A stretch of 47,365 bases of DNA from Boothiomyces macroporosus (taxonomy: Eukaryota > Chytridiomycota > Chytridiomycetes > Rhizophydiales > Terramycetaceae): assembly GCA_027604185.1 (NCBI GenBank), contig JADGKB010000107.1, positions 1 through 47,365 of the forward strand, given 5' to 3'. The translations under genes were made by a program, and so were the position numbers. The notes under the pieces are model-generated. The model made no database searches and was not told the DNA's origin. It worked only from the letters and a program-made list of their open reading frames with translations. Shown here piece after piece: positions 1 to 47,365 of this stretch. Numbering within the stretch: position 1 is the stretch's first letter; each line of letters starts with the position of its first letter.

Positions 1-255
1 GATATTGCTCGATCAATCTTTATCTGGAACCTAATTAAACCCGTTGAAATTTAAAGTCAATGTATCTGGGCTGGTAACATTTTTTACTGTACATTTTTAA
101 ATTTGTTCAACTTTGAAACCCCCCATTATTCTTGGCCGCATTTCCCATTAATTCCGAATTGAGAATGTACACATTCCTCGCCATCATATTTTTCTCTAAT
201 CCGCCAGACTTCTTGAGCCAAAATATTACTGAAGTACTTTATTGAAAAATAGCAA
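1..255. other. 3' flank of the first regulator gene, no gene seen
   Basis: This is AT-rich sequence downstream of the first Zn2Cys6 gene, which ends at 256. I see no convincing open frame, RNA gene or repeat. It probably holds the 3' UTR and polyadenylation region of that gene. Confidence 0.4.
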
Positions 256-2064
256 TTATTCAGACCATCCAGTGACGTTACTTACCGTATCATCCATAGG
301 AGATATAACGTCCATTGGTTGTTGATCATCACTTGTGCTAACAGAAGAGCAAAACTGGCTAAAGATTTCTCCAATATTCTGAGCTGGTGCTTCTGGATAT
401 GTTGGATATTCACCTTGCGACTTGATTTGTGCGTAGCAAATAGCTATTTGCGATAAATCAGTCAAGTTCAATAGATTTTCCAGCACCTCTGCCAAGAACG
501 GAACTCTTTCGCTAGCTAAAGAGTACATTTTAATACACTGAACACTAATGTTGAAATTCTCTTGAGCCAACTTTGTATCCACATCGAAAAAGTCAATCTT
601 CAAGGCACAGAGGAACAAGAACGCAAAATCAAAGACCAGAGCACTGAAAAGACTGTCGCACATGTAGAACTGAGGATTCTTTGCCAGAATACTCTTCAAC
701 ACTTCTACGCCTTCGTTAGCAGTTTCTAGAGCATCATGGAAGTATGGAGTATCTTGTAAAGTTTCATTTGATACTACAAGCAATTCGAGGACAGTTGGCA
801 TATAGATCAGCACTTTGGTGTGAATTGATCTGAAAATGATGTTCACCGAGTACCAAGTGTTTTCAACGTCTAAAATTTCATCATTTCCTTGGATTGTAAA
901 GATACTAGAGCTAATACCTTCTGGAAGACACCTCCTCCACTCTGAGATTGACCCTTCCAAGCACCCCATGACGTACAAAGAAACGCCTTGCAGAGTTTTG
1001 TTTCTCGATTGGTAATGGAAGCTTAGTACTTTGCCATGAATACGCAAGAGCAAAATGTGATATGCATGTGCAGAAAGTCCTCTAATACCTGGCGTGTACC
1101 ATCCTTTGGACGAAAGGATCTCTTTGCCAAAGAGATTCAAGGAATTTTCCATTTCACTAGTGCCAGGTAATGAAATTTGGTTCGAGTCTTCCTTGATCAA
1201 CTGCAAATTCTTTTCGTAAAACTTGCTATCAATTTGATACAAAAACCACCAAATGTTTCGGATTATTTCTCGCTCTTGGTCATGAGCTGCTAAGGTTTTA
1301 ATTGCCTCTTCGTTATTGATACCGACTTCCTTTGCAATGGTCAAAGCCAAAGAGTAATACAAATAACCTTCTCCCTCTCTACGTAATCCTGATGGTCAAC
1401 AAAAACTTACTGTTGGCAGTGATTGAAATGAAAATCAGCGCTAAAACCCCATAAATAGACGGTCTGGTCATTATGGAGGTGATAAAAGAAGTGGTTTTGT
1501 CCATGTACGCCTTGGCCATTTCCAAACGGCTGGGAAAGTAGTCTGGTACCATTCCAGGCTGCGCATACAAAGACCCGGCGCAATACAAGGCATACTTCAA
1601 TATAGGGTTCTCTTTTGCGCATTCTCGGATGTAAGTGTCGGGAATGTTCAAGTCTTTCAAGAGACGAGGAGTAAAAGCAAGAGTGATCAAATAGTCTCTA
1701 TCTTGCTCGAAAAGCATATACTGTAACTCCTTTGATAGTTGTAACACTGGCTGAACAGTCACAATCCTATGTGGGTATAATTCTGAAATCCCATGATAGA
1801 TCCTATCCATAGAATTAAATGGGTTTTTATATCCGGATGAAAGAACTGACTCCAGCTTTTGTAAACGCTCCTCCAAGTCATTCTTCTTTTCTTGCAGACG
1901 AAATTTGTTATCACTGTACACACATTCTTGGCCTGATTGAACGCAGCTAGGGTTAAACAAACATCGTACTTTGAGCACGGCCGGCCTCGGTCGCACTTTC
2001 GTTTCTATCGTTAGTGAGGAAATACTCTTTTGACGCAGTAATCGCAAGTATTATTTTTTCGCAT
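256..2064 (-). CDS. Zn2Cys6 fungal transcription factor, tandem paralogue 1
   Basis: This is a nuclear DNA-binding regulator, first of three tandem paralogues. The ATG at 2064 opens a short leader followed at once by a Zn(II)2Cys6 cluster (C-X2-C-X6-C-X5-C-X2-C-X6-C, starting CDYC and ending CVYS). A leucine-rich linker (LEERLQKLESVL) and a fungal-specific middle region with IWWFLYQIDS and WYTPGI motifs follow. Three introns are needed: 2005-2025 (21 nt), 1947-1969 (23 nt) and 1389-1410 (22 nt). The first two fall inside the zinc cluster, and only their removal restores the six cysteines in spacing. The spliced frame gives 580 aa. The C-terminus after the GT at about 287 is less certain, because a further 3' intron cannot be excluded. 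The target genes cannot be told from sequence. Confidence 0.88.
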
Positions 2065-2175
2065 TTCGTTGCGATTAGAATTTTGCCACAAATAAATTCG
2101 AAAAAATGTTCCAAAATTGGAATGATCGTTCGGCCTCCTATCCCGGGAGAATGCCCTTAGTTACAAATACTATTT

Positions 2176-4346
2176 TTATTCCTTTTCAAAAATAAACGGG
2201 GTATCAGAGACGGCGTCAAAGTAATCATTTTCATTTTGATGGGGCTCTGTGGGGATTACCGATCCCGGTTTCGAGTAGATGGTATTGGGGGTAGCGGATC
2301 GTTCTAATATTTGGGGAGATAGGATGCCGGTAATGTTGGCATTCATTTCAAGAGATATGTCCAATGAATTGAGCGACGATACGGAATTGGAGGCAGATGA
2401 CAAAAGATTGGAATCGGATTGGTTCATGTTTGCCATTATCCTAGGCTTACGGCTGAAACTAATCTTTTTTTCAAGAATGGGTGATATCGATACGCTGCCC
2501 TCCCTCGATCGTTCCAAATTAATGTCCGAAGACCTATGTATTTCAACATGAAACCTAGAAACATCTTGCAAGGAGGATGTAGAGTTGGAGCCAGATGAAT
2601 AGTTGGAATGTGCCATAAGCTCTGGTGTTGTGGCAGAATGATTGCTACTTGGGCTGGGCAAGTTGGGGAACTTGCCTTGGTATCTATAATTGGCATAATC
2701 AGCGGCCATTTGCGAAATGCTGGGCTTCCCCATCAATTGAAACGCCATTTCGGCAATGGAGTTTGATTTTCCGAATGCGATGCAGTGATTTTGAATGCAT
2801 TTGATGTGGATATCAATTGACTCACGAATGTTGTGGGCGTGCTGTGGCGGAAGGTCTAATTTCGAGGCACAAAGTAGGGGGCTAGGTTAACGACTGATTA
2901 CAATAGAATGTGGAAATTCCATGCTGGGAATACCGAGTTTGTATACAAGAATTTGTTGTTTCTAGCGAGATATAAGCTTAATAGCTTTGCATTGTCATGT
3001 CCAATTTTGATAGAGTCATTAAACAACTTGATTTTCGTCAAATTGTCAGTTTCTCTAATCAGTCTTCTTAACAAGAAAGGTGTATTCAACAGGTTTCTGA
3101 TTTCATTTTGATGCACTAGTAACTGGGCAACAAACCACGTTGTTTTTGGATCTTTGATTGGTAGATTATTCTGGAGTATTTGAATATGATTGTCGACGTA
3201 ATCTGGCAGAGATGCTTTCCATTCGTTCAAAGACGCCTGCAGTGTCGCGACGATATAGTTGCAGTCTTTGATTGCATTCTTTTGAGTTAACGCAAATAGT
3301 TTGAGGACTTTTCTGTATATTCGATACAGCAGGATTTTGTAGGTGGTTAGTGATTGGTTTGGTATGCCTGGTGTATACCAATCTTCAGACCCAATAACTT
3401 GTCTTCCCAGCAATGCAAATTTTTTGTCTTTAGGCTGCAGTAATACTTCATTGTTTAATGGCAAGTAGATTTGATTATCAGCATCATGTATCAAATTTTT
3501 GGCTTTTTCGATCAGATAAGAGTCCAATTGATACATTACCCACCAAATTGACCTAATGTTTTCACGTTCATAGTCAAACGGAGATAAGTTTGCCAATGTT
3601 TCCTCGTTATTGATCCCAAGTTCTTTGGCAGTATCCAACGCAGAAGAAAAATATATCTGACATTCATGATCTTTTTTCAATCCTATGATTAACGCTATCT
3701 TACGAGCAGCAGTGTGAAAAATATAGACCATAGCTAGTACACCAGTCACTGTAGGGTTTGAAATTAGTAGGGGGAAATATGAAACTGCTTTTTCATAATA
3801 AACGTGCGACATTTCAATTCTATTATTGAGCCCTTCTGGAATCATATCCGGTCTCGCTATTAGAGAGCCGAACGAGTACAGGATATATTTCAATGGTGGA
3901 AGTGATTTTGCAGATGTTCGAACATATTCTTCATGCAAACAAGAGTACGGTGAATTCTGATATAACAGCGCCAAGTCCAATAAATTCTCGTGGTCTTTTT
4001 CAAACAAGTATTTTCTCATTTCTTCTGTCAAATCTCTCTCCGTTTTGATTGTTGGTTTGTTTACGTCAATATGCTCAAATTGATATTGTACGGGAAGTAT
4101 TGAATTTTCAGACGAATACGGACTGGTATTGCTGTAAGCATCCGATAATAAACTCTCCAACCGTTTTAACCTCTCCTCCAATTCCCTCTGTGTATCTCCT
4201 GCTCGGGGTTTGCTTTCGGAGTATATCTAGAGTAAGTAGAGAATTACGCATTCGATTTTGGCGGCTATGCAGTTCGAACAGGGCTTTCCTCTATCGCATT
4301 TTCTTTTCCGCTTTACGCAATGATCACAAGTATTGTTTTTTCGCAT
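2176..4346 (-). CDS. Zn2Cys6 fungal transcription factor, tandem paralogue 2
   Basis: This is a paralogue of its two neighbours with the same plan: ATG, an N-terminal Zn2Cys6 cluster (CDHC to ECIYS), a LEERLKRLESLL linker and a middle homology region with SIWWVMYQLDS and DWYTPGIPNQ. A serine/asparagine-rich tail follows that is longer than in paralogue 1. Introns lie at 4227-4247 (21 nt), 3683-3703 (21 nt) and 2882-2901 (20 nt). The first one sits right after the last zinc-cluster cysteine. The second has a length divisible by three and no stop, so unspliced reading would add seven residues (KIALIIG). It lies at the site where both paralogues have an intron. The intron near the first cysteines of paralogues 1 and 3 is absent here. 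Spliced length is 702 aa. The gene ends 111 bp upstream of paralogue 1. Confidence 0.88.
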
Positions 4347-4771
4347 GTTTTGTAAAGTTGCTAAAAAATCAGTTGTGACAGGTCGTTAAAAAAATCACAA
4401 TGGGAATCACAATCACTTTCAAACATACAATGGAATAGATTTCATAATCATGAATTAATTTCCCGCAGGCAAATGGGAAGGATGGATTTCCAGTGGTTGG
4501 TAACTATGAATGTCACCTGTCAATTTTAGCAGGGTTATACTCGAATAATTTTCACTCATACTGATTGAGTGTAGATTGCTTTGAAAAAAATGTAAACAAT
4601 TTCCAAAACCGTTCCTTTTGTTGGATATAGACAATTACCTTGGAGTGGCCATACATAATAACCAAGTTTTCTTTGAATGACCTATTTCCACTCAAATGTA
4701 TAATTTTCACAAGACAATAGTGTTTCAAACCAACAAATATTATACCACGACCCAATAAAAGTATAAATATA
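4347..4771. promoter_or_regulatory. Intergenic gap, promoter region of paralogue 2
   Basis: These 425 bases lie between the start of the paralogue 2 gene at 4346 and the end of paralogue 3. They must contain the paralogue 2 promoter and the paralogue 3 terminator. An open frame on the minus strand runs into the downstream gene but has no coding look. I see no repeat or defined motif. Confidence 0.4.
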
Positions 4772-6767
4772 TTAATTTGGATGGAAAAATGGATCTGAGG
4801 ATAGCAACAGATCAATGTAATTGGAATCCTGTTTGTTTGGCTGCATAGCTTGGATTCCTTCCATTTGAGTGCCGCCCATAAAAGCTCCCCCAAACATCGG
4901 GGTTTGCATATCGTTATTATTCCAATTCATTGGTTGGGAGTTGAATTGTTCAGATGGCATTTCCGATTTAGAAGATATCCATGGGGATTGCGTTTCTGAT
5001 TGGTCTGATCGATCACTAGAGTTTTTGTAGTATGGACTGTTCACTGAGCCCGGATTTGCAAGTGTCTTGATAACACTAGGGTTCTTGCCAGATGATTTGA
5101 AATTCAAGTAATCTTTTGCGACTTGGATAGGGTCGGATAGAGAAATCAGGTAATCCAAAGTTTCAGACAAGATTGGTTCTGCTTCGTAAGCCAAAGTATG
5201 CTCCCTCAAACAATGAACATGGACTTCTAATGATTCAGCGACCTTGGCAGCCTCCAAAGATGGCAACTCCATCCGGAAAGCGCAAACAAGAGGAACAGCG
5301 ATGTGGAAAATGTACCGGCCCAGTGTAGCAGTGCAAAAATCGAAATTTGGGTTTCTTCTTAAAAAGCATTGTAATATTACAGCATTTTCATGGCAAATAT
5401 TTATCGATTCCAAGAACGCATGAGAAGAAACTGCAGAGCTTGGATTTTCAATAATGTTCTTCAACATGCATGGATTGTAAACCAGTGATTTTACATGGTT
5501 GAATTGTACTATGGTGTGCAACACCACCCAAGTAGTTTCTGGATCAACAATGATTGCATTGGACTGTACAAGTGGGAAGTGAGCAAGTATATGATTTGGT
5601 AATGACCTCCACCATTCTCTGAGCGAGCTGCTGAATGCTTGCATGACGTACAATGGTTGCATTTTTACATCTTTCTGTTGGGTGAGGTGATTAAACAGAA
5701 GCACTTTGCCGAAAATTCTAAACAAAAGAATACGATAGGCTTCTAGGCTCTGATTAGGCAATCCAGGAGTGAACCATTCTAAATTAGTGATTGTTAACCT
5801 GGGGATGAAAGCATTTGCATTCCAACCATAGGCAGCTTGTCTTGAGCATGATCGAAATTCACTTTGTTTGTGGTAGGCAAGAATAATTGATTATCTTCAT
5901 CCTGTATGTAGTGTGCATTCTTTTCCATCAAGAACCTGTCTAGTTGATACATACTCCACCACACCCCACGATAATTCTCTCTTTCATAATCGCCTTCCGC
6001 TAAAGCAGCCAGTTTCTCTTCAACATTCATTCCTATATCCTTTGCCATGGATACAGCCAAAGAGAAATAGGTCATTCCTTCTTTTACTGAAATTAGTTAA
6101 ATATACCTCTATCATTTCGGATTGCCGATAAAGCAATAGTAAACAACGCTAGAGTTCCAATTAAACTTGGATTTGCAATTACTGCTGGAAAGTAAGACAT
6201 GGCTTTGTCCAAATATATACTTCCCATTTCAATTCTGTTGCTAACATCGTTCGGAACCATTTCTTGGCTCGCTTTTGTTGATCCGATAGAGTATAGAGTA
6301 AAGTTGACCATAGGAGATTTCGCAGCTGCTTTTCTAAGAAAATCTGCAGTGAGAAAGACAAAGGGACACTGAATCGAGAGAAAGGAAAGATTAATCAAAT
6401 CATCTCTTTTTGTTTCGAATAGAAATTGCTTTGTTTGACTGGATAATTCCTTGGTGACGACATTGGTAAACATTTCCCCTTCCATTTTTGAATTCATATT
6501 ATTAGTCATAAAGAATGTTCTGTCAGGCATATATCCGAACGAATTCCCTTGCGATTGTGCGAGCAATGCTTCCAGCTTGTGCAATCTGTCCTCCAAATAC
6601 TTTTGATTTTCAGCGTTAGGTTTCTGTCTGGTTTCTGCATAGAAGCAGTCTAGTTTGGAGGCAATGCAATTTGAACATTTAGGACGGCCGCGGTCACACT
6701 TGCGTTTCTATATTAAGCGAATTCATACTTTTTTAATGCAATTATCGCATGTATTGTTTCTTCTCAT
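4772..6767 (-). CDS. Zn2Cys6 fungal transcription factor, tandem paralogue 3
   Basis: This is the third member of the regulator array. The ATG at 6767 opens a Zn2Cys6 cluster (CDNC-X6-C-X6-C-X2-C-X6-C, ending DCFYAE), then LEDRLHKLEALL, then the fungal middle homology region (GVWWSMYQLDRF, WFTPGLPNQS) and a glutamine/asparagine-rich tail. Introns are 6708-6728 (21 nt), 6087-6106 (20 nt) and 5779-5798 (20 nt). With them removed the frame is continuous for 644 aa. The first intron is at the same place as in paralogue 1. The second is at the same place as in both others. The third, just before WFTPG, is private to this copy. Same-strand order, shared architecture and partly shared introns point to tandem duplication. 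The regulon is unknown. Confidence 0.88.
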
Positions 6768-7983: not shown

Positions 7984-8062
7984 TTTCAGAATGCTTTTTC
8001 AAGTAAAGAATTTCCAAGCGGGTTTGCCCTTTGAAACCCGCAATTATTCAAACTTTTTCCAA

Positions 8063-9041
8063 ATGAATCAGAAAATTGAAAACTTGATGGCATGGACAAA
8101 GCAGCCTGAAAACAATGTTCGCATCAAAGATCTTGAAACATTCATTGCGAAATTATTACAGATAAAAAAGCAGAAATTCGAGCATTTACATATAATTGCG
8201 GATTTCGACATGACCTTGACCAAATACTGGCATAACGGGAAAAGGTCTCTATCATCGCATGGTGTCCTAGAAGAATCGTCAGTGTTGGATGAGACAGTAT
8301 ATGTGATTAACACAGGTGAAAAGGAAAATGCGGGAGACTTACCACAAATACTATCCCATGGAAATTTCCCATTCAATTACATTTGAAGAAAAGACTAGGG
8401 CAATGGTAGAATGGTTACCAGGTATTAATATAGGTGGACTACCACCCACACGTTACTACAGAATGCCCGTTTGACAAGGCAGGATATCAAAAACATGATT
8501 ATTGAGAAGCCAGTTACTTTCCGGCCACTATTAAAAGAATTCATTGAACTTGTATCAGATAGGAAAATCCCGCTGCTAGTATTCTCTGCTGGATTAGCTG
8601 GTAAATTTATTTGATACAGATGTAATTGAAACTATCCTCGTGGATAATGGTTTGTGGACAGATGATATGGCAATAGTTAGTAACAGAATGGTATTTGAAA
8701 ACGATGTATGCGTTGGGTTCCAAGATCCACTAATACATTCTCTCAACAAGAATGAAGCTGGAATGTCAGAGAGTGTGCATGCACAGAAAGTAAGCAACAG
8801 AGATAACGTGGTACTATAAATTTGATTTAGGTATTGATGGGAGATAGCATTAGTGATTTACAAATGGCGGATGGTATTCGTCACGATACGAAATTAACTA
8901 TTGGTATTTTTGTGTTAACCAGGCTTCTTGAACCATGATGTCGAGTTGTTGCTGGAAAGGTATGAGCAAAGCTTTGATGTGGTGCTGGTGAATGATACAT
9001 CCTTGGAATTCCTTCTTAGGATGATATCTGCAATTGAATAA
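8063..9041 (+). CDS. Pyrimidine/cytosolic 5'-nucleotidase III (UMPH-1 family, HAD)
   Basis: This cytosolic HAD-type phosphatase dephosphorylates pyrimidine nucleoside monophosphates in this family. The nucleophile motif DFDMTLTKYW, the HGVLEE segment, the VFSAGL motif II region and VLMGDSISDLQMADG (motif III) are all visible. The end FDVVLVNDTSLEFLLRMI is typical of the family. Five introns restore the frame: 8297-8315 (19), 8414-8433 (20), 8601-8619 (19), 8811-8830 (20) and 8904-8922 (19). The result is 293 aa, close to the family's usual length. The ATG at 8063 is chosen over an in-frame ATG at 7991, because the latter would leave only a few bases to the divergent acetyltransferase start. 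The extra residues from 7991 could also be a targeting extension. Confidence 0.9.
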
Positions 9042-9738: not shown

Positions 9739-11992
9739 TTACCACTCAAGACCAGAGTAATCAGGACAACCCAATACAACTTCTCTTTGCTTGGTCCTAA
9801 TTGCCGCGCAGGAATCTTCTTCGTATTCAATATGGTCTGGATTGACACCAGATTCTTGGCGACTACTTTCGGAATAGAATTGCTTGTACCATCTTCTGAA
9901 TTCTTTGATTTGCTTATCATCACGAATCAAAATTGGAGTTCCTACCGTCAAAACGACTTACTTGGATATTCCTTGTGGTTCCAAATTTCAATATCTTCTG
10001 CAAATGCAAATTTAGCTTCTCGAAGGATATACCATACCAACAGCCTTGGTACGGAATTTTCAGCAAAGAATGTATCGTGCATGGTGCATTCTAGCGCTTT
10101 TGAAGGAGTAAAGGTTTTTACCATCAAGATAACTATATGAGAAAAATGTTACATCCAAATGGCGTGTTGAATTGGAAATACATTACAGAGGAAGGGCCAC
10201 ACATTGTGACTGTGGTATGAACTCTGTCAGGGAGGAAGGGCTTGGTATCGTCAAATACAGAATAAACCCTAGCCCAATTGGTGAACTTTAGAACATGTGG
10301 TTTATCTTCAAACTTTACCGATTCGATAGTGTGCTTGATATAGGTGAACAATGAGAGAATTGGAAAGTGCAATTTGCCATGAACGACATCAAAATGGGTC
10401 CAATCAGCACTGTTTTCAGCAACGTCCTGCATATGCAAGTGTACCTTACGTTCTGATTCTCCATAACAAGTCATTTTGTTATCGTCAAATTGAGGGAATC
10501 TAAACAATTCATATTGCGGTGGGCGGTTTTCAGCGTCATACCAGACATAAATGTTACCCATGTATTCAAATGCGGTCCAGCTCTTTACACGGGCATTGTC
10601 AGGAACTTTGGCGCCAGGAATATGCACACACTTTCCATCTTGTCCAAACCGCCATTCATGGAATGGACATTCCAATGTGTCTCCAACTACCCTGCCTACG
10701 TTAGGAAAAATTACCTCCTAGTGCCATATTTGCACCCAAATGAGGACAAATTGCATCTGTAACGGATATTTTTTCATTATCTTCACCTCGGAATACTGCA
10801 AACTTTCTTCCAAGGCAAATCTTTTGATATACTTCTCCAGGTTGAACTTCCTTGCTAGAAAACAATCTATACCAACCGTTTGGATAAGGTGGAGGATATT
10901 TCCATGCACGGTGCTTTCTAGACCCGTTCATTTCACTAACATCCTTTTCAACAGCCGGAGAATTCATCTTTGCGATTACATAACCAACTGCCATTCCGCC
11001 AGCCAAAGTCATTACATTTCCAAAAGCACCCAATCTGATATTTTCCCATTGGGAAGCAATTGCAGAGAAAGAAAAGATTGCCAATGAAGGAACAACGTAG
11101 CCAAACAATTGATGGGATGGGAAACAAGCAAACAAAGAGAGCGAAATCAAAGAGATCACAAGAATCTCATTTGGCGGCATAATCCCCAAATGTTCAGAAA
11201 GCATTTGCCAGAACACTCTGATACCTAGAATGCCAATAGCACAAATAGAATACAAGGAACGCAGTCTGCTTTCTTGATTCCTTCGTACTTGTAACCTTCT
11301 GATAAAATCTTTAGTAGCAAACATGCCGATGGAAAATGCCAAAACGTGAGAAATCGTAAGGTTCCATGCATCGCTAAACGACATCCCTGTTTCCGCTGGA
11401 ATGATAAAGATGTGGAAACAGTACTTGAACCACAATAGACAACCTAATATTAGAAAATCCCACCAGTCAAGAATTCAATGTGGAAAATGAAATCAAACAG
11501 CACATGTAAAAAGTCCTTTCCATCTTTACCCAGCTTTGGAGCTCTATTTGAAATTCTTTCCACTGATCTATGAATACCAAAGTAAGCGGTTATTCCAAAC
11601 AGCAAACAAAGCGTGTGTGAAAATCGAGTGTTGAAAAAGAATCCTTTGAGACCAGTAGCAACATCTTCAGGAACAACAATAGATCCAAATGTAAAAGTCT
11701 CTGGATATCTGAATAGATTTGGTTGTCCAGACTTTACTTCGATATTAAAGTACTTTAGTACTTGTTGAAGGTACTGATAAGCAAGTGCTTGGTAATACGC
11801 GGTTGTTGAAGCAGAGATACATGTGTGATAACAAAACAACAAGAACTGAGACCAAATCAAGTAGGATAGAACTTGTGATCTGGTTTTTTGTTGAAGCGTT
11901 TGTTTCAGTTGGATCAATCCCATGATCGCATTGTAAACAAAAGTGGCAGTGAATAGTCCAATTGGAATGTATACCAGAACGGTAGACAGCAT
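9739..11992 (-). CDS. Rieske sterol 7-desaturase (Neverland/DAF-36 type) with polytopic N-terminal extension
   Basis: This is a membrane Rieske oxygenase of the cholesterol 7-desaturase type. The YPPPYPNGWYRLFSS entry motif is followed by the Rieske cluster C-P-H-X17-C-P-F-H and the mononuclear iron motif (NSADWTHFDVVH). The end shows EIWNHKEY and FRRWYKQFYSE, as in the family. Introns are 11444-11463 (20), 10696-10714 (19), 10133-10152 (20) and 9942-9961 (20). The second intron lies inside the Rieske motif and must be removed to form it. The spliced product is about 724 aa, far above the roughly 420-460 aa expected. The extra 300-plus residues before the catalytic part contain several hydrophobic segments. 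The first in-frame ATG is at 11992. An ATG at 12104 with a weaker 25-nt intron is an alternative start. Substrate and sterol specificity are inferred from the family only. Confidence 0.85.
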
Positions 11993-22238: not shown

Positions 22239-23871
22239 TTAAAAAGAGTGTAGTGCTTCATTTGGGTTTGCAATCCACTTTTTTAGAGTTTCAGCGTACT
22301 TTTCGGCTGTTGAAGAGAACATGGAAACTAAACCAAACGCATTCAACATCATGTCGAGCGTTTTTGTCAAGCCTGGGGATTGTCCATTTATCAATGTACT
22401 TATAACTTGTACACCAGCAGCTTCAAAGATACAGCTAGCAATGTTATCGGGAATACCGGTAAAGGTAGGGTTGTGTGTCAGGATGATCTTGAGGATCTTT
22501 GATATTACTGAAGCAGATTCAAAGCAAGTAGCGGTGTATGGATTATTGCCGTTTGCGAGTGGGTCCGAAAGCGACATGATAAATTGGCCCTTGCGTATTT
22601 GGATAAATAAGTAGTGGCAAAAGCAGTGCAGATACGCAATGCGCCATGAAGGAACTGTGGTGGAGGTATCGTCAGTGGAATAAACCTGTGGAATAACTTG
22701 CAGCCATCTAGGAAGTTCCGTAACCCATCTGGTCAAGTCATTGTGCAGTTGATCTTGCTGATAAATGTCCCCCATACTAGTTTTCAAGTGATGCTCAACT
22801 CTTTTTGCAATGCGGATCAAGGAATAGTAATAGGAATGGTAGGTATCTTGCATCAAGTTTTGCACACTTCCTGTTGGATATCCAATAAGAATGTCGGATT
22901 CGTCAACTATAATGCATGGGAGTTTTGCGAGTTTGGAAGAATAATAGTCGTACTCGTATGCATGCCACCAGAGATGGTCACAAAAGAGCTTTGCAGGCAT
23001 GCTCTCGTTACTCATTAAAGTGCCATTCTGAGAGAACCAGAGGACTTCCCCACCTCTATGGATACCTAGTCTTTGAGTCATCCTAATTGCAAGTCCATAG
23101 TAAGAAACGCTAGTAATGCTTCTTGAAGAGTTGTCTGCATATATTCCCATCAACAGAAAAGCAGCGGCTGTAAATGGGTTGGGTATATCAAGTACTTGGG
23201 GAAGTAACTTTTTGGCTTGAGAATGATTTGCATCACCAGCTTTCCAAGAACCGCCCATAGCTATCGGTGCTGTACATGTTAATGCATACATGGAATGCAA
23301 GAGGATTACTGGAATTTCCTTGATGTTTTCCATGAACCAAGACTCTGTAAACAAAGGCAACTTTGTATTTACCCATGCAAAGTACACCTTGGTCCACAAA
23401 GTCAGATTTCCGTCCGTTGTGCGTATGCTAGGAAACGAATAAAAGTTCCAGCTGTCCATATCCTCGACTGGGGATATCATTGGAGTTGGTAAGTAAGAGT
23501 TATCAAAAGTAATATCGTACTTTAACACAGGTGTCTCTTTCATAAACTTTTCTGGACTCTGTGTAGGTGTTGGGTTGGTTGGAAATGTGAAGCTGTAATT
23601 AGTAGAAGCAGGAGATTTTTCTTCATTTGATTCTGAATCATAGTCAGCTTTAGCGTCAGAGTGATGTGATGCATTCGCTCTCTTTCTTTTCGGACGTTGA
23701 GAGTAGGTACAGCTTGCTCCTAGTTTGATACATCGCTCACAAGGATTTTCTCCATCGCACTTTGTTTTCTGCTGTTAGTATTTAAAGAACCTATTGTTAG
23801 TATGGTTCTACCTTTGCTGCACAAAAATCGCATGCCTTGTTTGATCGCTTTCGTCTCTGCGGTGCTTGCAT
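22239..23871 (-). CDS. Zn2Cys6 fungal transcription factor, unrelated to the 5' array
   Basis: This nuclear regulator of 529 aa has an N-terminal Zn2Cys6 cluster (CDFC-X6-C-X5-C-X2-C-X6-C, ending CTYS), a basic linker (RPKRKRAN), a long serine-rich spacer and a fungal middle homology region (LLMGIYADNSSRSITSVSYYGLAIRMTQRLG has the classical pattern). The cluster forms only if 23769-23811 (43 nt) is removed. That interval consists of two intron-like units end to end (23791-23811, 21 nt, and 23769-23790, 22 nt), each with GT, a TACTAAC branch motif and AG. Sequence similarity to the three tandem regulators is low, so this is a separate subfamily. Targets are unknown. Confidence 0.83.
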
Positions 23872-24880: not shown

Positions 24881-25951
24881 TTACAAGAAATAGTGAGGAC
24901 CAGTACGGGCGGGAATGACCCTCTTCTCATCTGGAACGGCATTAAAGATTTTAAATGATTCTTCAGTAACATTAAGATTTTGATTGATTTGTAAAATAGA
25001 GGCAACGTTCCCACTGCGATAGCAGTAGTTTGGCGCAGACCAAACGGTTACTAGGTTATCGTCTGGGAACATGAATTTGTATCCCTCTTGAACTAATTGA
25101 TGCGCTCTAGCGATAAGAGTCAAGTTATTCACTTGGCAAAACTAATTCAGTTTCCATATACCTCCAGTGTAACTTTACGACCAAATAGCCAGCCAGCACC
25201 TCTGGGACTCACCGCCCACGTATCAATATCTTCTGGATCTGACCACATTAAATCTAATGGTTAATACAGAATACCACAAAATGCGCCTTCGTGTGGAATC
25301 TCTTGGCAGCGCTGAATAGTTCTAATTTGATCTAGAGTACGAATATCCGGCGATAAACCACCATGTACACAAAGAACTCTTCCATCGACAATCTACATGA
25401 GCTAAATGTACTGCAGCAAGGGTAATAAAGTCAAACACATTGCAGCAAGCTTTCCAAACATTCGCATTTCCGTATTTAGTTTGACATTCATCTGTAATTA
25501 GCATTCACATACCAAAAAACCCATAAATTTGAGTGATTTGCCTGCTCTCATGATTCCCCCTCAACAATGTTATTTTGTCAGGGTATCTCGCTTTAAGAAC
25601 TAGTAATAGTGTAAATGTTTCCAAACTATAGTATCCTCTGTCCACAAAATCCCCCTTTGGTTATGGAAATGTACCATGAAAATGTAGGAGGTGTTTGGAA
25701 CCTCTCCTCCCACTCTAAACAGCTCCAGCAAATCATAAAACTGTCCATGAATATCTCCGCAAATTGTAACTGGTGAGCTGACTGGCTGAACGTTGGATTC
25801 CTCGACCAACAATTCCTTGACCTGTAATTAACCATAACAAACGATTTCACACAGCTTTTTCATATCTGCTTCAGGCAGATATTGTCCCTTTTTAACTGTC
25901 TCTAGCCATTCGTCTGGTCCTATTTGTGAGGTTGGGATTACCTGATCCCAT
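24881..25951 (-). CDS. PP6-type serine/threonine phosphatase catalytic subunit (Sit4/PPP6C family)
   Basis: This is a PPP-family metallophosphatase with all catalytic motifs: [22 protein letters not shown], the H in CVHGGLSPD and [10 protein letters not shown]. The [12 protein letters not shown] tail ends in the YFL of the PP2A/PP4/PP6 group, and the RVIP-x-R form fits PP6. Seven introns are required: 25920-25941 (22), 25822-25842 (21), 25655-25674 (20), 25492-25512 (21), 25393-25411 (19), 25254-25274 (21) and 25142-25161 (20). Removal gives 308 aa, about the length of PP6, without a single gap in the conserved core. This is the best single proof of the tiny introns. PP6 enzymes act in cell-cycle and nutrient signalling with SAPS regulatory subunits, none of which is encoded here. 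Confidence 0.94.
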
Positions 25952-34960: not shown

Positions 34961-34965
34961 ATTTA

Positions 34966-37667
34966 TTACAAGTTGCCATCTGTCCATGCTTCGGTGAATT
35001 CGTCAGTTGATAAACTGCTTACATCTTCAACAAAGGACTCTTCTTCCAACGTTATATCTTGTCCAATCCATTCATCATTATTAGCAGTTGAATCAGTATT
35101 CTGAGAAAGATTCAGTTGGTTGAAATCAATCGATGGTATAGACTCAAAGAATTGCCAATTAGGATCTTCTTCGACTTCTTCGACTTGTACTGTTTTATAA
35201 ACTTCGATATCCAGCCTAAATTAGTATGGCTTACCATTCCTGGTAGTTGTTTCTAAAGTTTTCATCCAGATCAGGCTGCTGCTTCTTAAAGTCAAGGAGG
35301 GTGGCATGGTTCGGATTCTTTGGATCAAATGTTTCAGACAAAGACATGTCCAGTGCGATATCAAGTCCATCAGGTTCATGTTCGCTCTTGGGTATATCTA
35401 ATTTTGGATCAGCGTTGTACTTTAGTCGATCGTTAAAATTTGCTACTAAATTTCGAAGATCCAAATCTTGTTTCTGTGTTAATAATGATTACAATTGCTT
35501 CATCGGCGTCTACCTCGTTCTCCCCAGACAAATATTCTTCTTTTAATTTATGAGACAACCGCTGATATATCATGGATATTATTGGCATGTTATTTGATCT
35601 CCACTTTTTTCCCAAGAGGGGGATTTGACTTTTCAACACTTTTAGTGCATATAAATCTAAATATGGGTTATTCACTTTGAGCATTCTCTTCAAAACAGCA
35701 GACGCTTTCCATTGAACAAGTGCTAATATTCGATGCATTTTGTTCTTTGTCAACTTTTGCAACACCCGCAACAAATTGATGGTAGTATGGAAATTACGTT
35801 CACTTGCTCTACATTGATCTTGTAGTTTTAGTGTGTCGGCAGAACCTCTGGCTTGATCCGCTATGTTTGGAGCAACAGGAGGCACTTGTTTCCCATGAGA
35901 TTTGCAAAATTCGAAAAAGGATAGCTCTGGTAGTAGAGGTCGATCTCTTAACCACCCAGCACCCATTAAAAAGTCAATTCCAGCTTCGCCATCATCTGGT
36001 ACGCTCTTTTTCCTTCCACTTTGATTACTTGAAAACCAAGAGCTGAGCATTTTTAGGATGAGGATTGGGCCATTGTTATCCACTAGAATTTGACATATGT
36101 TTTCAAAAGCAAGTATGTGGTACTTTTTTGCAGATTTCAGTAGTATTATTAATATGCTAGAAATGACAAATGTCACTATTTCTTTATGACGAAAGTTGTC
36201 TATTCTGTCCAACTCCAACATTCTTTCTTCTGGAGATAGTGCATTCAGTTTTTCGGATGAAATCTGTTCAATAGAAATATTTTCGACACCAGTAGCTACA
36301 TTCAAATAGAATAATAATCGAACAAGCATTGTGATATTTTGTGGCAAGTCTGGCAACAACGATTCCTAGTATTAAATATTGCTTACATATAGCTCTTTTG
36401 CTCTGGAGAGTTTAGGATACTTTCTAGGATTCAGTTGGAACAATTCAAGTGGTGCTTCAAGGGAGGCATGAAACTGCTCCTTAAATCTTCGTTCTCTGGC
36501 GATCTGAATCTGGCCAGGTGTAGTGTACAAGTATTTTTTGTGCAGTTCAATGCTTTCTACAATAAACGGTGGATTATCACAGGTTGATTCTAGTAATGGA
36601 TGGATAACGACACCGTTTCGTGCTGCTTCCAACTGTGCTGCTATGTTGTTTTCCAATGCAGGGTCAGCTAGTTGATAAATATTAGCAAGGCTTTTGTGCA
36701 GAGTGCTAGGTACATTATCCAGCATTCCTGGTTGATAATTCGGAACGTCTAGAGCAGGATCGGGGATATAATAAGATGGATATCTGTTCATTAATGTGAG
36801 ATAGTGATTGTAGTAATCCTGAGGTGTAGTTTTAATTGGATAATCTTTCCTAGGTAGCTTCTCAAAAGCCCAGGATTCGCTTTTTTGCAGCTCCTGCTCC
36901 ATGCTATTACCAGTTATTACAGAGATTACTTTCCACAATACCAAGAGTAACTAGATTATAAATTATATACCTTTTTAACTGGAAATCTCTGTCGATTCAC
37001 TTCCGCCAGCTTAACAAGGGTATGAAATAAAAATGTTGGAATGTAGGGCAATTCATTTGCTTAGTTAATAGTCGTTTACCAACTGCTACAGCAAACGCAG
37101 GGTCATTCTTGTTTGCAACAATCATCATGTACATCAAACTGAGGTATATCGTAGTCTCTAAAACTATTGCATCTATAATCACTTGTGTTTCTGCAGAGAT
37201 TTTAGTCTGTTGTTCCAATTGCTCAAAATGATGAACCATAATTTTAAGAGACTGGATCAGAATTCAAATACCTTGTACGCAGAATGAAATGCGTTCAATT
37301 GAAACAGTTTTTTGTTGTTTGAAATGATTGCAGATAGCTGATCATTTGCAAATAATCCCTGTGAATAGTGCAGGAGCTTTGAGGCAGACAATATCCTCAC
37401 AGAAGAAACACTGTGAGTTAAATGAGACACTAATTCTTCGATATTCACTGGTCCGGACTCGTACAAATCTTTAGATTTTAACAGCATTGGGAAATCATGG
37501 TGGTTGTAGAAATCGTTGATATCCAAAAAGTCGCTGTCTTCCCTGTAAACAAAATCCCATTGTCCAGTCGGTAATTCCTCTTTTAAATTTGACGGATGTT
37601 TAAGTCCCAGGTTTGGAATCAGTTTTGGTGGTGGTAGCAGAAGTGGTTTTGATTGCGGGGTTTGCAT
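34966..37667 (-). CDS. Far11/STRIP-like STRIPAK subunit, 860 aa
   Basis: This is a scaffold of the STRIPAK phosphatase-kinase complex. The N-terminal N1221-type region (GQWDFVYREDSDFLDINDFYNH, VSSVRILSASKLLHYSQG) is followed by a helical middle (LVKLAEVNRQRFPVKK) and a C-terminal DUF3402-type part (NMPIISMIYQRL, LDIEVYKTVQVEE). Six introns are needed: 37252-37271, 37060-37079 and 36951-36970 (20 each), 36366-36386 (21), 35474-35492 and 35216-35234 (19 each). The tail is acidic. The family is recognised from the order of conserved blocks and the overall length. In yeast the homologue acts in pheromone arrest and TORC2 signalling. Confidence 0.82.
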
Positions 37668-40069: not shown

Positions 40070-42349
40070 ATGTCTGATATTGAATCTACCAATTCAGAGC
40101 CTACGGTTATTTCGATAAATCCGTCTTCCAGTATATCACAAAAGAGACGCAATACATCTGATAAGGACAATGAAGAAATCTATTCGGAAAATTCAGTTCT
40201 AGTGGAAACAGAAGTGACTGAAAATGGAACAAAAAGAATAGTATATAAAAGAAAATGCTTGTTTTGCACCAAAGTCTACACTGTTCAGAAAGGAGACAAA
40301 AACACTTCAAACTTAACAAAACATCTAAAGTTAAAACACTTTTCTCTTTTGAATATTTCAGACCATAAAAAACAAAAATTAGAAAGCGGTAGATAATCCT
40401 AATCCTTAGGTCAAACTGTATGGGGAAAATCTGGGATAAATGTACCAGCTTTTACACAAGAAGAATACAAAAAGGCCCTCGCGTCAAATATCGTTGCAAA
40501 CAATTTACCATTTACATATGCAGAGTGGGGTGAGACAAAGTATTTGCACACCTTTTTGAATAATAAAGTCAAAACATATACAGCAAACACTGTCAGAAAT
40601 TATATTCTATCTTTAGTAGATTTGAAGATGCAAAAGGTTGTTGACTACTTTTCTCGTTTAGAATCCACTAGAATATCTCTCACAATTGATGGTTGGAAGA
40701 GCCGCAATAATATGGATTTTGCAGGAATAAGTGCACATTGGATTGATCCTAATTGGAAATACCACAGTACTTACATTGGATTCACATACTGCGACTTTAA
40801 AAAAACTGGGAAAAATATGGCACATTTACTCTCCAAATCAATTACAAATTTTGGATTAGAAAACAAAATAATGGGAATTACGTGTGATAATGCCTCGAAT
40901 AACGACGTAATGTTAACACATCTGGAAATAGCTAGTTCAGAATGGTTATATCCTTTTCAAACCACATGGGGTCATATACGCTGTCAAGCTCATGTCATAA
41001 ATTTGGTAGCTAAAGCATTTTTAAAATACTTTGACTCGCATATAAAAGGCAAAATAGATCCAGCAGACGATAAAGAATATTTTCAACCAGACTTGGATAC
41101 CCTCAATGAACAGGAGGTTTCAAGTGACTCGGAAACTTTGGAAGATTCAGATGACGATAGTGAAGTAGACGATGGGGAAGAACACTTTCAACCTAGGCTT
41201 TCAAAGGAAGAGCTCCAAGAATCAAAAATACCAATCACCAAATTACGAAATATCATAAAAAAAATCAGGAGAAGCACAGAAAAATTGAGTGAATTTAAAC
41301 TATATGCCCAAAATTCAAGTAAAATTGTAGGAACAAACAAAATGTTGTTACCAGTGTATGATGTGCAAACACGATGGAATTCAACATACTACATGATTCA
41401 GCGTGCTTTAATTTTAAAGGATGCAATAACTAAAATGGGGATTGTATTTTCTATTAAAATTACTGAAATTGATTGGGTCGTACTTGAAAGGTATTTTCTT
41501 GTTTAATTCCAGAATCAGCAAAATTTTGGTTATATTCGAAGCAGCATCAAAGGAGGTATGTGTATCAAACAGTCCCACGTTATCTTCATCATTATACACT
41601 TATGAAAAAGTTGAAGTTAAATTAAAGGAATCTAAAACTCCTCAATCGAGTAAATATCCATTCTCTAAATATTTGGATAATGCTATTGATGCTGCCATTT
41701 CAAAGCTGCAACTTTATAATGACAAAAGTGGAGTTATAGCTCAAATATGCACTTTACTTGATCCAAGGCGAAATCTGACATTCTTCCGAAAATATTGGTT
41801 AGATGACGACATTAAAAATTTAAAAGATAGGTTTGTCGAACTAGTGGCAGTATACAATTACGTTCTTGAATTACGCGGCGTACTTTCTCGCACTAATTTT
41901 GACTGGTCTAGCGTAATTACTGACCGTCCAATATATCAAAGTGACCAATTTCAAGACTACCCTCCCATTGCACCAACTACTAAACCAAACAATATAGTGT
42001 CTCTGTTGGATAGTGATGACGAATCGCCAACGAACGATAAGCCGTTGTACCAATACGAAGTAGAAAGGTAATTATTCTTAATCTTGGATATCAGAAAGAA
42101 TACTGCATAGGAAAGAGAGATATTGATCCTTTAGTTTTTTGGAAAAATATGGAGGAAAGTCAAACTTTTGTCCTTTTGCCTTTGATTGCTCGGGATATTT
42201 TTGCAGCACAACCATCGAGTGTTTGCGTAGAGAGATTTTTCAGCAATGCAGGTAATGTTGTTACTGCAAACAGAGCTAGTCTTGGGGCAAAATCAATATC
42301 TGCTTTGCTGTTAATGAAAGACTGGATGAATAATCCAATATTCAAATAA
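40070..42349 (+). CDS. hAT transposase with N-terminal BED finger, one defective acceptor
   Basis: The reading frame has an N-terminal BED-type zinc finger (CLFCTKVY, STSN-like NTSNLTKHLKLKH). A central RNase H-like catalytic core follows (SLTIDGWKSRNNMDFAGI, GITCDNASNNDVM, RCQAHVINLV). The C-terminal hAT dimerisation domain is present (PSSVCVERFFSNAGNVV, LLLMKDWM). Introns 40389-40409 (21) and 41491-41512 (22) are normal. A third, 42068-42087 (20), would give YEVERYQKEYCIGKR, but it ends in GG instead of AG. Using it gives a full 738-aa frame; otherwise the protein stops at 42071, just before the dimerisation domain. A longer canonical 35-nt removal (42060-42094) is the only alternative and drops codons. 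The copy may therefore be inactive. Confidence 0.85.
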
Positions 42350-42519: not shown

Positions 42520-42538
42520 AGGGCGACTGCGACCCCTA
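42520..42538. repeat. hAT terminal inverted repeat, right
   Basis: These 19 bases mirror 39818-39836 exactly. On the minus strand its first three bases are TAG, which act as the stop codon of the interrupted gene. Confidence 0.9.
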
Positions 42539-42694: not shown

Positions 42695-43048
42695 AATTTT
42701 TTTCCCTAGAGTTCCTTTTTATACAGGTCATTCAGGAACCATTCCGTAATTTAATTACCTTTGTGTTTTGTACTTAGTTACACAAACTTTGAAGATATTC
42801 TTTTTTGGGTTACCTTCTCAAACTTTTCTGTAAAAAACCAAATATTAAAGTACTATTAAAGATCCGGTTTAAGCATTGGTGAAAAATAAAGTCCATCAAT
42901 TACCTTTCTGCTATTTTAAGGCATTTAATATAGTAAAGGGGAACCCAGAGTTCCTTAATAAAGAAATGATCGTTACCAAAAAGGGATTGACACAAAGCTG
43001 AAAGTCACAAAATATAACAATTTTTTTATTAATTTCGTCGGTAATTCA
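42695..43048. promoter_or_regulatory. Divergent promoter between chitin-related genes
   Basis: These 354 bases separate the start of the truncated CBM18 gene and the putative start of the chitinase gene, which point away from each other. I see no clear element apart from AT-rich stretches. Shared regulation is plausible but not shown. Confidence 0.35.
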
Positions 43049-46000
43049 ATGAATTATATTTCAATATTCTTCTTTACACTTCTAGTTCGAGCTTGCGATT
43101 ATGTAGGTTTAGCATGGTGTATGGTAAAACCATGGATAGTATTTGGTACATACCGTATTAACAAAATGATCCATTTCCTCACCCAGTTTTATTACCGCAA
43201 AGAGAATCCGCCTGTCTCGCTGAAAACAACTGTGTTCCCCAAATATGCAAAGACATTAAAGGCTTTGGAATCTGTTTTATAGACCCAAGGAAAGTATTCA
43301 TTTCTGGGTTGGACAAGTATAATCAATGCTATCAAGAAAGTTGTGCTGAACAGGCTCCCGTTCAGCCAACATGCAACCCTCAAGGTAAGTGAAAGCTTAT
43401 TCTAGATTGTACATCGAGTTCATGTCCTCCGAACCAAAAGTGTCTGGTGCAATTAGGTTCACTTCAGAATGGCGTCTGCTCCTTAAAACCAGTTTGTTTG
43501 AATTTTCCTTCATGCAAACCACTAGATTGCTCTAGTTGCCCTTCTAACAGTAATTGCGTTATTCATAATCACCATCCCCTCTTGGGTCTATGTGATGGTT
43601 ATGTAGAGTATTTAATACTAATATAGATGTCAGAAACCAGCATGTCCACCTCCTGATTGTAACTGTGCTTCAGGTCAGCGATGCCAAATTACTCAACAAG
43701 GAGATTGCTCAGTTGGAACCTGTCTTGATCCTTGTGCTTTCAAGACTAATGGTTTGGATGCTGACGGTTGTCTGGGTCTTTCTCAATCTATGGGTATCTC
43801 TCCAGTGGATCTTTTGGCTTTCAACCCAGGACTCAACTGCAATGCTTTAGTTTCTGGACAAAGACTATGCGCAAACAAAGGTTATCTTCCTGATCCATTA
43901 CCAAAGCCATCTATGAATCCAGATGGAAGTTGTTTTTCTATCAGCGCTAGTCCTAATTTTGGAACATGCATTGCTTTTGGTGAAAATTATGCCATGACAA
44001 GAGCTGAAATTGATTCTTATAATCAACATACTTGGCAATGGGGGTGGTTGTAATGGTCAGATATATTTAGGGCAGAAAGTTTGTCTTTCTCCTGGTACTC
44101 CGCCAAGACCAGATATAGACCCAAGAGCAGAATGTGGTTTGACTAATGTCAATAATGCCACCTGCCCATTAAATGCCTGTTGTTCTAGGTGGGGATTCTG
44201 TGGTAGTGGTCCTGATTTCTGCAATTTTAAACTTGGACCTCCAGGTTTAGGATGCCAGAGTAATTGTGATGGAGCTCCACCACCGGTTTGCACAAATACT
44301 ATGGCTTTCAACGTGGGATATTATGCAGCATGGTCCACTGAAAGACCGGCAGGGTGTCCTCGTAGTGGTAATTTCAAATTTATTGTAGGACCAGCAACTT
44401 TTGCAAATTCTCCATTCACACACCTTCATTTTGCATTTGGTGGAATCGATAGCAATGGGTTACTATCTGTACCCAGTCCTCAGTTTGCAGAATTTGCATC
44501 AATCAAGAATATTAATCCTTCCATGAAATTAATTATATCAATTGGTGGTTGGGCGTTCAATGATGTACCAGTCACTAATAATCAACCAGATACTTCTGGA
44601 TACTTTAGTCGCATGGTGTCTTCTTCTTCAACTAGAGCTGCATTCATAAACTCTGTAGCATCCTTCCTGTATCTAAACAAATTGGACGGCATAGATTTCG
44701 ATTGGGAATATCCAACTGCCTCAGACCGACATGGTAGTGCAGCTGACGCACAAAACTACGTTCTTCTTCTACAGGAATTGAGACAACTAGTGGGAAGCAG
44801 ATACTCAATTTCAGTTGCAGCTCCTGCATCGTATTGGTATCTCAAGGGATTTGATATTGCACAAATGGCAAATTATTTGGACTATATCGTTTATATGACA
44901 TATGATATGCACGGCAATTGGGATTATGCAAATCAATACACTGGCCCGTTCCTTAATGTACACAATAATTTCACAGAAATTGTTCAAGCTATCAGTATGA
45001 TTGAAAAGGCTGGTGTTCCAAGCAACAAGATATTGATAGGCTTTGGGTATTACGGAAGATCATTTAAACTTCAATCCTCGTCATGTACTTCTGCAGGTAT
45101 TGTTCAAATTAATGACTAGGGATATGTCTCTTTGATGACCCAGGATCGATGGTTGTTATCGGTAGCGAACTTCAATTTCCAAATACTGCGTTGGCGGGTA
45201 TGTGCACGAAAACTGGGGGATATCTGGCCGATTTTGAAATCAAGGACATAATTAATCGCCAAGGAGTAACACCTCGACTTGATGGTCCGTCGCTTTCCAA
45301 GATTTTAGTGTACAATAACGGAAGAGATTGGATTGGGTACGATGACGCTCAAACGATTGGTACAAAGGTAATTTTTCTTTAAGGAAAGACAAATGTTGCT
45401 TCAGGAATGTGTTTGGGGGGTACAGCCATCTGGTCAATCGACCAAAGTTGGGATTTTAATATTGTTTCCGTTCCAGTTTGTGGTAAACATTCAAAAATCA
45501 ATTTGAACAACCAATGTGAATGTGATGCAGATTTTGCACTTTTAAATGGAAATTGTTATTATACAAAATGCCAGCCTAATTCAAATTGGGACAGCAATCA
45601 AGATGCCTGTGTTTGCAACCCGGGATTCCAAGGACCAAATTGCACTGCAATTCCACCCCCAACATGTCCACCTCATGCATCAGTGAATATCTTTAATGTG
45701 TGCGTTTGTGATCAAGATTTTGAACTTCAAAATGGTGTATGTGTGTACACGAAATGTCAACCAAATTCCCATTGGGTTAATGAAAACTGTGTCTGTATGG
45801 ATGGTTTCGAAGGATCAGATTGTCATCCAGTATGTCAAAAGGGATATGCATGGAATGGAAATACATGCTCTCTAATCATGGTGCTGGATCCTGTTTGTAT
45901 TCCAGGTCAAAGCTGCGTTATGATTCCTCCTGGTCCACTACCTATCACATTTACATTTCCATTTAGCGTTCCTGGTCTTCCAATCCCATTGGTTATTTCG

Positions 46001-47162
46001 TCAATTCCTTTCAACATCAATTTACCTGGTCTGCCTCCAATTAGTGTAACTGGGGAATCTGAAAACGACAAGGACAATGAGAAACCTAGCAAATGGGACA
46101 AACCAGTGTTTGTAAAATGCTTGAATGATGATCCAGACGTTGGATTTGGGATGCAAATATCTGCTAATTTACTTTATCCTCCAAAAGACAAATCTAGATG
46201 GGATCCAACATGTAAATTACTGGGATTGACTATTGCTCAAACAGAAGTTTATGCAAATACTTGTTCTGATACTACTACCACGGTAGTGGGGACTTTTAGA
46301 CTTTTTGGATACTTTGGATTTTCCAGAGGCAATGGCATGCTACATGGCAGAAGAGGATCTGCATGATGTTGCACCAGCTTGTCCGTCACCACCCTCAAAT
46401 ATAGGAAAAGTATATCAATTTTGATTATAGACTAAAATACAAGCTTTAGAAAGGAAGCGATGCAAAATCCCACAAGAAACTCAAAATCAAATCACTCCAT
46501 TCTTTTGGACATATGAAAATGTTAGAAAAGAACTGAGCGCAATGCTTACTTACACATCTGTACCATCCCCAGAAAGGTATGCAGACGTACTTCATCGCAA
46601 CTATACATTTGACGTGGATGCTTATAATATGCAGTATCCGTCAACTCCGTATAAAGAAACAGGAAAGGAAGATGCAAAACCTGCACAAATCCCATTTATA
46701 TTGAGAAACTTTGCATTCAGAGCACTCAATATAGAAAATGATGGAATTGGGACAACAACCATCAAACCAAAAAAACCAAAAAAATCATATGTAGAGTTAG
46801 AACATGTTGCAAAAACAAACGGTTTTACACAATTTATTTCAGTCACATCAGATATGGATTTTGCAAGAAGAGCCGCAATGCGAAAAGTATTGGAAAGAAA
46901 ACGTAAGGGTATCATAACAATTCCTTTTGTAATGCTGTCTTTGGATGGCTTGTCTTATACAAATTTGAACGACTTTAAAAATATTTCTCAATGCAAATTG
47001 GATTATAGGACAGTTTTGCAGACTAGACAAAATGTAAACCCAGAAGAAAAGGACCAAATGGAAGTACAAAAGGTTTGGGATACATTCCATGGATGGGCAA
47101 CAAAGTCATCGGAAGCGCTGGTGAGAAATAATATTCCAGCAGTAAAAATTGTATTAAACTAG
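43049..47162 (+). CDS. Multidomain chitinase: Cys-rich, LysM, CBM18, GH18, EGF-like repeats
   Basis: This is a secreted chitin hydrolase. A signal peptide (MNYISIFFFTLL) leads to a Cys-rich region (to about 43740), two LysM-like modules (about 43770-43875 and 43930-44095), a CBM18 module (about 44140-44260) and the GH18 barrel (about 44310-45450) with SIGGWA and the catalytic DGIDFDWEYP. Three EGF-like Cys repeats (about 45480-45870), a Pro/Ile-rich stretch and a 300-residue tail follow. Clear introns: 43385-43405 (21), 43608-43626 (19), 45097-45119 (23), 45368-45388 (21), 46410-46430 (21). Splicing near 43100-43180 is unresolved. Two single extra G bases, in runs at 44040-44044 and 46288-46291, break the frame; removing one G in each continues clearly homologous or coding text. 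Either the assembly is wrong there or the gene is decaying. Confidence 0.82.
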
Positions 47163-47365
47163 GCGAATATCGTTTTAATGGTGAATGTAACGCAACTTAA
47201 CTTTAAAGAATTCAAGTTCACTGTTATAGTAAATAACGACCACCCTTGGAATGAGAACTGTAATGGTGTTTATTTCTGCAGAGCACCCACAGTTTGAATG
47301 TAATAAAATGCTGTATTCTATTCCAACTAAAAATTTTAGAGGAAAATAACAGATAATCCAACCCT
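47163..47365. other. 3' flank of the chitinase gene to the window end
   Basis: These 203 AT-rich bases hold no open frame or structure that I can support. Confidence 0.4.

Follow-up and report, generated by a model that had tools for sequence, protein, structure and literature searches.

Whether introns of about 20 nucleotides (nt) can be the ordinary introns of a free-living fungus is the question raised by a 47,365-nt stretch of Boothiomyces macroporosus DNA (contig JADGKB010000107.1 of assembly GCA_027604185.1, hereafter the window), in which an earlier reading of the letters (the original prediction) had placed 55 introns of 19-23 nt in 19 genes. The window is the full contig C107 of a genome of 15,203,306 bases in 216 contigs, with a GC content of 37-39%. 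It was surveyed together with 20 stretches of 10 kilobases (kb) taken from contigs C1 to C20, giving 247 kb or about 2% of the genome, and loci from targeted searches were added to reach a total of 317,203 bases in 42 pieces after the removal of four overlapping or copied loci. As judged from sequence features, the short segments are almost certainly genuine U2-type spliceosomal introns, for which 19-23 nt would be the normal size in the 2% of the genome that was sampled.

To begin with, genes were modelled with an order-4 three-periodic coding model self-trained on long open frames, in which all intron lengths from 10 to 150 nt were equally likely and splice-site weights were zero. Under this unbiased model, 49 of the 126 introns with GT..AG ends in the window and the 20 stretches were 19-23 nt long, compared with 4 of 121, 10 of 112 and 6 of 106 segments when the control ends TG..GA, AG..GT and CT..AC were used, respectively. 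Outside this size range, GT..AG gave 77 introns, while the controls gave 117, 102 and 100. Of these controls, AG..GT is not a clean one and may catch shifted real introns, because the branch motif described below was found in six of its ten short segments. With a looser intron cost and still no weights, the GT..AG introns of 19-23 nt rose to 85 of 282 (controls: 11 of 276, 18 of 273 and 12 of 243), and no GT..AG excess was found at 24-150 nt (187 vs. 252, 231 and 212). Moreover, the same peak appeared in 21 held-out loci outside the training set, where the unweighted model placed 21 of 48 GT..AG introns at 19-23 nt, against 2 of 50, 2 of 38 and 1 of 26 for the controls. The held-out test, as well as the pair test described below, included locus L008, while L038, L041, L043 and L045 were omitted as overlapping or copied.

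A typical intron opens with a GTA donor and closes with a YAG or AAG acceptor; between them is a YTRAY branch motif, its A placed 13-14 nt after the first base of the intron and 5-6 nt ahead of the last. Among the 49 introns placed without splice weights, 44 start with GTA and 7 have G at position +5, while the third-last base is T in 31, C in 12 and A in 6. A perfect YTRAY was present in 42 of them (9.3 ± 2.8 with shuffled interiors) and a motif at least near-perfect in all 49, with the branch A 13-14 nt past the first intron base in 44 and 5-6 nt ahead of the last in 41. These are the same elements that had been proposed from the letters alone (GTA starts, TAG, CAG or AAG ends and a branch-like motif near the acceptor). 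It had also been proposed that the branch point and the acceptor almost touch; the distance is indeed 5-6 nt, but the tighter spot is that between donor and branch, mostly 13-14 nt. If the segments were instead chance GT..AG stretches by which the gene model bridges the frameshifts of a noisy assembly, they would mimic introns, and most of them are in fact not a multiple of three in length, so that their removal also mends a frameshift. However, assembly errors of this kind would hardly yield a 19-23 nt peak with GT..AG ends and none comparable with control ends, nor a perfect branch motif in most of the unweighted segments, mostly at a fixed place. On these two grounds the indel artefact was rejected, and its probability is regarded as minimal.

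Learned splice weights were then combined with lengths of 10-150 nt, which gave 104 of 158 introns at 19-23 nt, and a final model used the learned weights with intron lengths restricted to 14-32 nt. In the 247 kb, the final model predicted 142 genes, of which 104 had introns, and a total of 313 introns, 289 of them at 19-23 nt (69 of 19 nt, 119 of 20, 68 of 21, 26 of 22 and 7 of 23); on the 21 held-out loci, the corresponding figure was 113 of 124. A perfect YTRAY was found in 211 of the 293 introns of 18-24 nt in the final set (54 ± 7 when shuffled), although the weights favour this motif. For the 291 introns with a good motif, the donor-to-branch distance was 13-14 nt in 247 and the branch-to-end distance 5-6 nt in 254; G at +5 appeared in 18% of the final set. 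Furthermore, an in-frame stop was present in 46 of the 56 introns whose length is a multiple of three (genes with a start), which also argues against assembly indels. In the window, 52 introns were found in 18 of 25 genes (11 of 19 nt, 19 of 20, 14 of 21, 5 of 22, 2 of 23 and 1 of 24), confirming the earlier claim of short introns, and for 51 of the 52 the retention of the intron would add a stop or shift the frame. As for the statement that almost all introns measure 19-23 nt, the length peak is real, but a sequence of 43 nt at 23769-23811 is also removed, which reads as two abutting introns.

The removal of the short introns restored a conserved protein in the PP6, UMPH-1, PP2A and Zn2Cys6 genes. 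For the PP6-type phosphatase, the PDB alignment with PP2A-C starts at residue 6 and is gap-free at the six junctions that it covers, the first junction preceding the alignment; its two gaps lie farther downstream, both away from junctions. The best PDB alignment of UMPH-1, with 5′-nucleotidase III, spans residues 59-309 and includes all five junctions, with two one-residue gaps. The Far11 model is 99% identical to a B. macroporosus protein on record (P0001), which agrees at five of the six introns. Beside the sixth (35474-35492), P0001 lacks seven residues, as if 40 nt had been removed there instead of 19; two relatives (P0002 and P0003) retain these residues as ADADEAI. Since P0001 matches most of the Far11 junctions, introns of about 20 nt are already part of the public record, and this agreement is not what indel errors would predict. 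The intron counts of the original prediction for these three genes (seven in PP6, five in UMPH-1 and six in Far11) were thus reproduced and checked against proteins.

The sequence features by which spliceosomal introns are recognised, namely GT..AG ends, a branch motif that would pair with U2 and the restoration of proteins, were all found. A removal outside the spliceosome, by ribosome bypass or by a ciliate-like excision at the DNA level, could be considered given that 20 nt is far under the usual sizes of fungal introns. This is nevertheless most improbable in view of the GT-AG ends, the branch motif complementary to U2, and the small nuclear RNAs (snRNAs) and splicing factors of the genome, in which U1, U2, U6 and eight proteins (U2AF65, SF1, Slu7, Prp18, U2AF35, Isy1, Cwc25 and RED) were searched. 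Two U2 genes were found, both with the GUAGUA element (GTAGTA in the DNA) complementary to the branch motif, U6 carries ACAGAG (read as reverse complement) and U1 starts with ATACTTACCTG. Seven of the eight proteins (all except RED) were found and gene models built for them, with Slu7 and Prp18 above their cut-offs, so that a loss of these two factors as in Stentor was rejected, and the Cwc25 model starts with MGGG. The gene models of U2AF65, U2AF35 and SF1 looked ordinary by eye; U2AF35 reads through once four introns picked by eye (21, 19, 19 and 20 nt) are removed, the first of which (L040 1378-1398) is a GC-AG intron by protein fit. The suggestion that U2 snRNA, U2AF and SF1 might be altered therefore found no support as far as tested, the recognition sequences of U1, U2 and U6 being canonical. 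Moreover, with three of three snRNAs and seven of eight proteins found among the eleven parts searched, the machinery did not resemble the reduced spliceosome of mikrocytids or microsporidia, and the parts tested show no spliceosome reduction as far as tested.

The N-terminus of Isy1 was compared in ten aligned sequences. It differs from MARNEEKAQSMLYRF in this genome, where the gene start is uncertain, and in Boothiomyces sp. JEL0838, Globomyces and Kappamyces, while among the other six MARNEEKAQSMLYRF is kept or nearly so in four and two begin at MLYRF. A divergent Isy1 N-terminus was noted in several Rhizophydiales. At the start of the gene in this genome (L042 1225-1320), the sequence can be read as two 20-nt introns flanking a 1-nt exon or, following the JEL0838 protein, as one 49-nt intron.

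Several observations weigh against 19-23 nt spliceosomal introns as the norm and have to be set beside the evidence above. The length distribution of the final model is blind to long introns because of its restriction to 14-32 nt, and through its splice weights the model favours introns with the branch motif. At least one intron with protein support, that of Isy1, measures 46 nt. Lowering the intron cost in the weighted model added many longer introns, so that at the loosest setting 232 of 450 were 19-23 nt long; the added introns are read as bridged gaps between genes. A raw count of GTA..[TCA]AG spacings tops at 21 nt (93) yet reaches 87 at 49 nt, and proves nothing. As to the machinery, the U1 match scored 68.8 bits, below its gathering score of 69.5. 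The U2AF65 match (230.7 bits) was below its cut-off of 310.3, as can be expected because the gene was matched exon by exon. No match to RED was found in the genome search, nor in the control genomes, so this result settles nothing.

With these points included, genuine spliceosomal introns remain by far the most probable reading. The standard two-step reaction with the standard snRNA pairings would remove introns of about 20 nt as lariats with a loop of 14-15 nt and a tail of 5-6 nt. The pairing at the donor (U1, then U6) and that at the branch (U2) would then stand nearly side by side, which would imply either that the two sites are recognised sequentially or that the pre-catalytic complex is arranged unlike the human one.

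Introns longer than 30 nt were considered separately. Among the five such introns with protein support, four consist entirely of GT..AG units of 19-24 nt that abut one another, and every unit has a branch-like motif. These tandem arrays of abutting mini-introns are a new observation here. The largest is in the PP2A gene, where removal of the whole array yields a gap-free PP2A alignment over 302 residues. For the window array, removal of the 43 nt completes the zinc cluster of the gene 22239-23871 (Zn_clus 42 bits, profile positions 1-39), compared with 33.2 bits and positions 8-39 for the open frame alone. No Zn_clus match was found in P0011, the database protein for this gene (434 amino acids), which starts downstream, nor in a Terramyces relative, P0012 (487 amino acids). 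For the L018 array, in MCM7, the list of matches has four MCM7 chains whose match begins at residue 11 and thus upstream of the junction. Support is weaker for the L016 array, consisting of frame continuity and a motif of what we take to be a METTL6-like gene, because the PDB alignment begins farther downstream. Juxtaposed AG|GT inside an intervening sequence, the mark of recursive splicing, was present in all four supported cases.

The frequency of abutting units was compared with that of units separated by control offsets of 1-60 nt. Nine exactly abutting scored pairs were found, whereas the control offsets averaged 1.17 and never exceeded 6 (4 vs. 0.35 and 3 vs. 0.12 at higher thresholds). 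Six of the nine fall in the four arrays. With a looser definition of the units (branch motif only), the two chains of at least three units compare with two in all 60 control offsets together. Nested stwintrons were also considered and rejected, as there was no excess at three thresholds (5 vs. a control mean of 5.25, 1 vs. 1.67 and 0 vs. 0.67). The nested and chain tests omitted L008 in addition to L038, L041, L043 and L045, the last four of which overlap or copy other loci.

Given the size preference, the removal of an array unit by unit through AG|GT would be the natural reading. It would amount to recursive splicing in miniature, which the arrays resemble in layout, and would be part of a near-fixed ruler (about 20 nt), under which longer intervening sequences would mostly be head-to-tail introns of this size, cleared singly via AG|GT without an exon, in five steps in PP2A, with the 46-nt Isy1 intron as a one-step exception; this proposal is put forward tentatively, its probability being rated somewhat short of even. 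The arrays could equally be ordinary introns of 43-110 nt, each removed whole in one step, with the internal AG|GT as leftovers of their origin, and the chances of this are judged to be about even. The spliceosome evidently removes the Isy1 intron, for which three relatives give support and which shows no division into abutting units; on account of this intron, a strict quantisation of intron length was rejected. In contrast, the exact division of four of five long introns and the excess of abutting pairs are not what one-step splicing would predict. The case for the ruler is further weakened by the three remaining scored pairs (two in L025 that overlap and one in L040), which are put down to chance, since protein fit shows one member of each to be exon. 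The looser definition retains the two long chains but fails to set pairs apart from the controls. It gives nine chains of at least two units, where the control offsets average 2.88 and reach up to 10; these nine are the four supported arrays, one chance chain by protein fit and four unsupported ones. Finally, the search for long introns was incomplete, with 15 of 88 candidates of 25-130 nt passing the filter and being read by eye; the PP2A array was absent from the filter output and was found by reading the gene.

Table 1. Genes with short introns in the window, and tandem arrays in the window and in other loci (lengths in nt in brackets).
Feature	Position	Strand	Introns or units	Basis or context
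PP6-type phosphatase gene	24881..25951	-	25920-25941 (22), 25822-25842 (21), 25655-25674 (20), 25492-25512 (21), 25393-25411 (19), 25254-25274 (21), 25142-25161 (20)	seven introns; reading frame and motifs
UMPH-1 / 5′-nucleotidase III gene	7991..9041	+	8297-8315 (19), 8414-8433 (20), 8601-8619 (19), 8811-8830 (20), 8904-8922 (19)	five introns; gene model and PDB alignment
Far11/STRIP gene	34966..37667	-	six, of 20, 20, 20, 21, 19, 19 nt	
Zn2Cys6-like gene	256..2064	-	2005-2025 (21), 1947-1969 (23), 1389-1410 (22)	by eye
Zn2Cys6-like gene	2176..4346	-	4227-4247 (21), 2882-2901 (20)	by eye
Zn2Cys6-like gene	4772..6767	-	6708-6728 (21), 6087-6106 (20), 5779-5798 (20)	by eye
Gene	9739..11992	-	11444-11463 (20), 10696-10714 (19), 10133-10152 (20), 9942-9961 (20)	gene model only
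Long gene, model of about 1396 amino acids	28946..33216	+	29000-29019 (20), 29090-29111 (22), 29196-29215 (20), 32779-32799 (21)	gene model only
Window array	23769..23811	-	43 nt = 23791-23811 (21) + 23769-23790 (22)	inside the Zn2Cys6 motif of gene 22239-23871
PP2A array	L003 1906-2015		110 nt = 22+21+24+21+22	five units; protein fit
L018 array	L018 89-131		21+22	in MCM7
L016 array	L016 8632-8688		19+19+19	in presumed METTL6-like gene

Among the other features of the window, the three Zn2Cys6-like paralogues, recognised by eye, adjoin each other on the minus strand (256-6767), and part of the first of them matched Fungal_trans with 21.6 bits, below the cut-off of 23. The genes at 14871-15776 (minus strand), 18068-19133 (plus) and 38192-39228 (minus) appear related by eye, with a DUF4436 match for the first only. 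The gene at 40070-42071 (plus), presumably a hAT-type transposase, is predicted to contain introns of 21 and 22 nt. At 44301-46366 (plus) is what we take to be a family 18 chitinase, after which come cysteine-rich repeats with an EGF_TEN match below the cut-off. Equal or near-equal scores for the same matches were obtained on contigs C107 and C72 (PP6) and on C49 and C100 (Cwc25), which suggests that these contig pairs are uncollapsed duplicates, perhaps haplotypes.

Introns of this size have been described in other systems. Chlorarachniophyte nucleomorphs have introns of 18 to 21 bp (PMC10245619), resembling the present ones in a nearly equal length range and in their many introns per genome; however, nucleomorphs are the relic nuclei of endosymbionts and their genomes are reduced, as opposed to a fungal genome of 15.2 Mb. 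The original idea of a fungal genome that is free-standing and rich in genes, with introns of spliceosomal form, is supported. Stentor has introns of 15-16 nt, with Slu7 and Prp18 listed as not found and Cwc25 without the GGG plug (PMC9505925). Common to both organisms are the narrow length, the GT-AG ends, canonical snRNA elements and a branch A fixed at about 5 nt from the intron end. The Isy1 N-terminus, reported as non-conserved in Stentor, may be divergent here as well, given the uncertain gene start, while Slu7, Prp18 and the MGGG start of Cwc25 are present here and the branch consensus, not strong in Stentor, is strong. The mikrocytid introns, of 16-17 nt, are likewise very short and uniform, but their spliceosome is strongly reduced, with 17-19 proteins found (PMC10245619), unlike the parts tested here. 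Within the fungi, a size class of 20-40 nt is distinguished among the introns of Cryptococcus neoformans, which average 56 nt (PMC11913375), so that the smallest introns are a minority there and the norm here. A literature search, from which subscription papers were mostly beyond reach, found no paper reporting that introns normally measure about 20 nt in Boothiomyces or any other free-living fungus. Regarding the arrays, the ratchet points of Drosophila recursive splicing, located in long introns and requiring a cryptic exon (PMC8605326), share the juxtaposed AG|GT, whereas each step here would be about 20 nt. The stwintrons of ascomycetes, which are nested canonical introns (PMC8469720), also have more than one canonical intron per intervening sequence, but the units here abut.

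A donor-to-branch distance of about 52 nt is thought necessary in humans, because the helices formed at donor and branch lie 15 nm from each other in the B complex (PMC6692369). In comparison with that figure, 13-14 nt appears to be enough in B. macroporosus, whose snRNA elements are the same and which has most of the factors tested. On the practical side, the protein on record at the window array is without its zinc-cluster domain. The arrays raise the question of whether a single splicing machine works through five abutting mini-introns one after another. If the present reading is true, intron miniaturisation would be separable from spliceosome loss, and a fungus would be available for testing minimal intron geometry.

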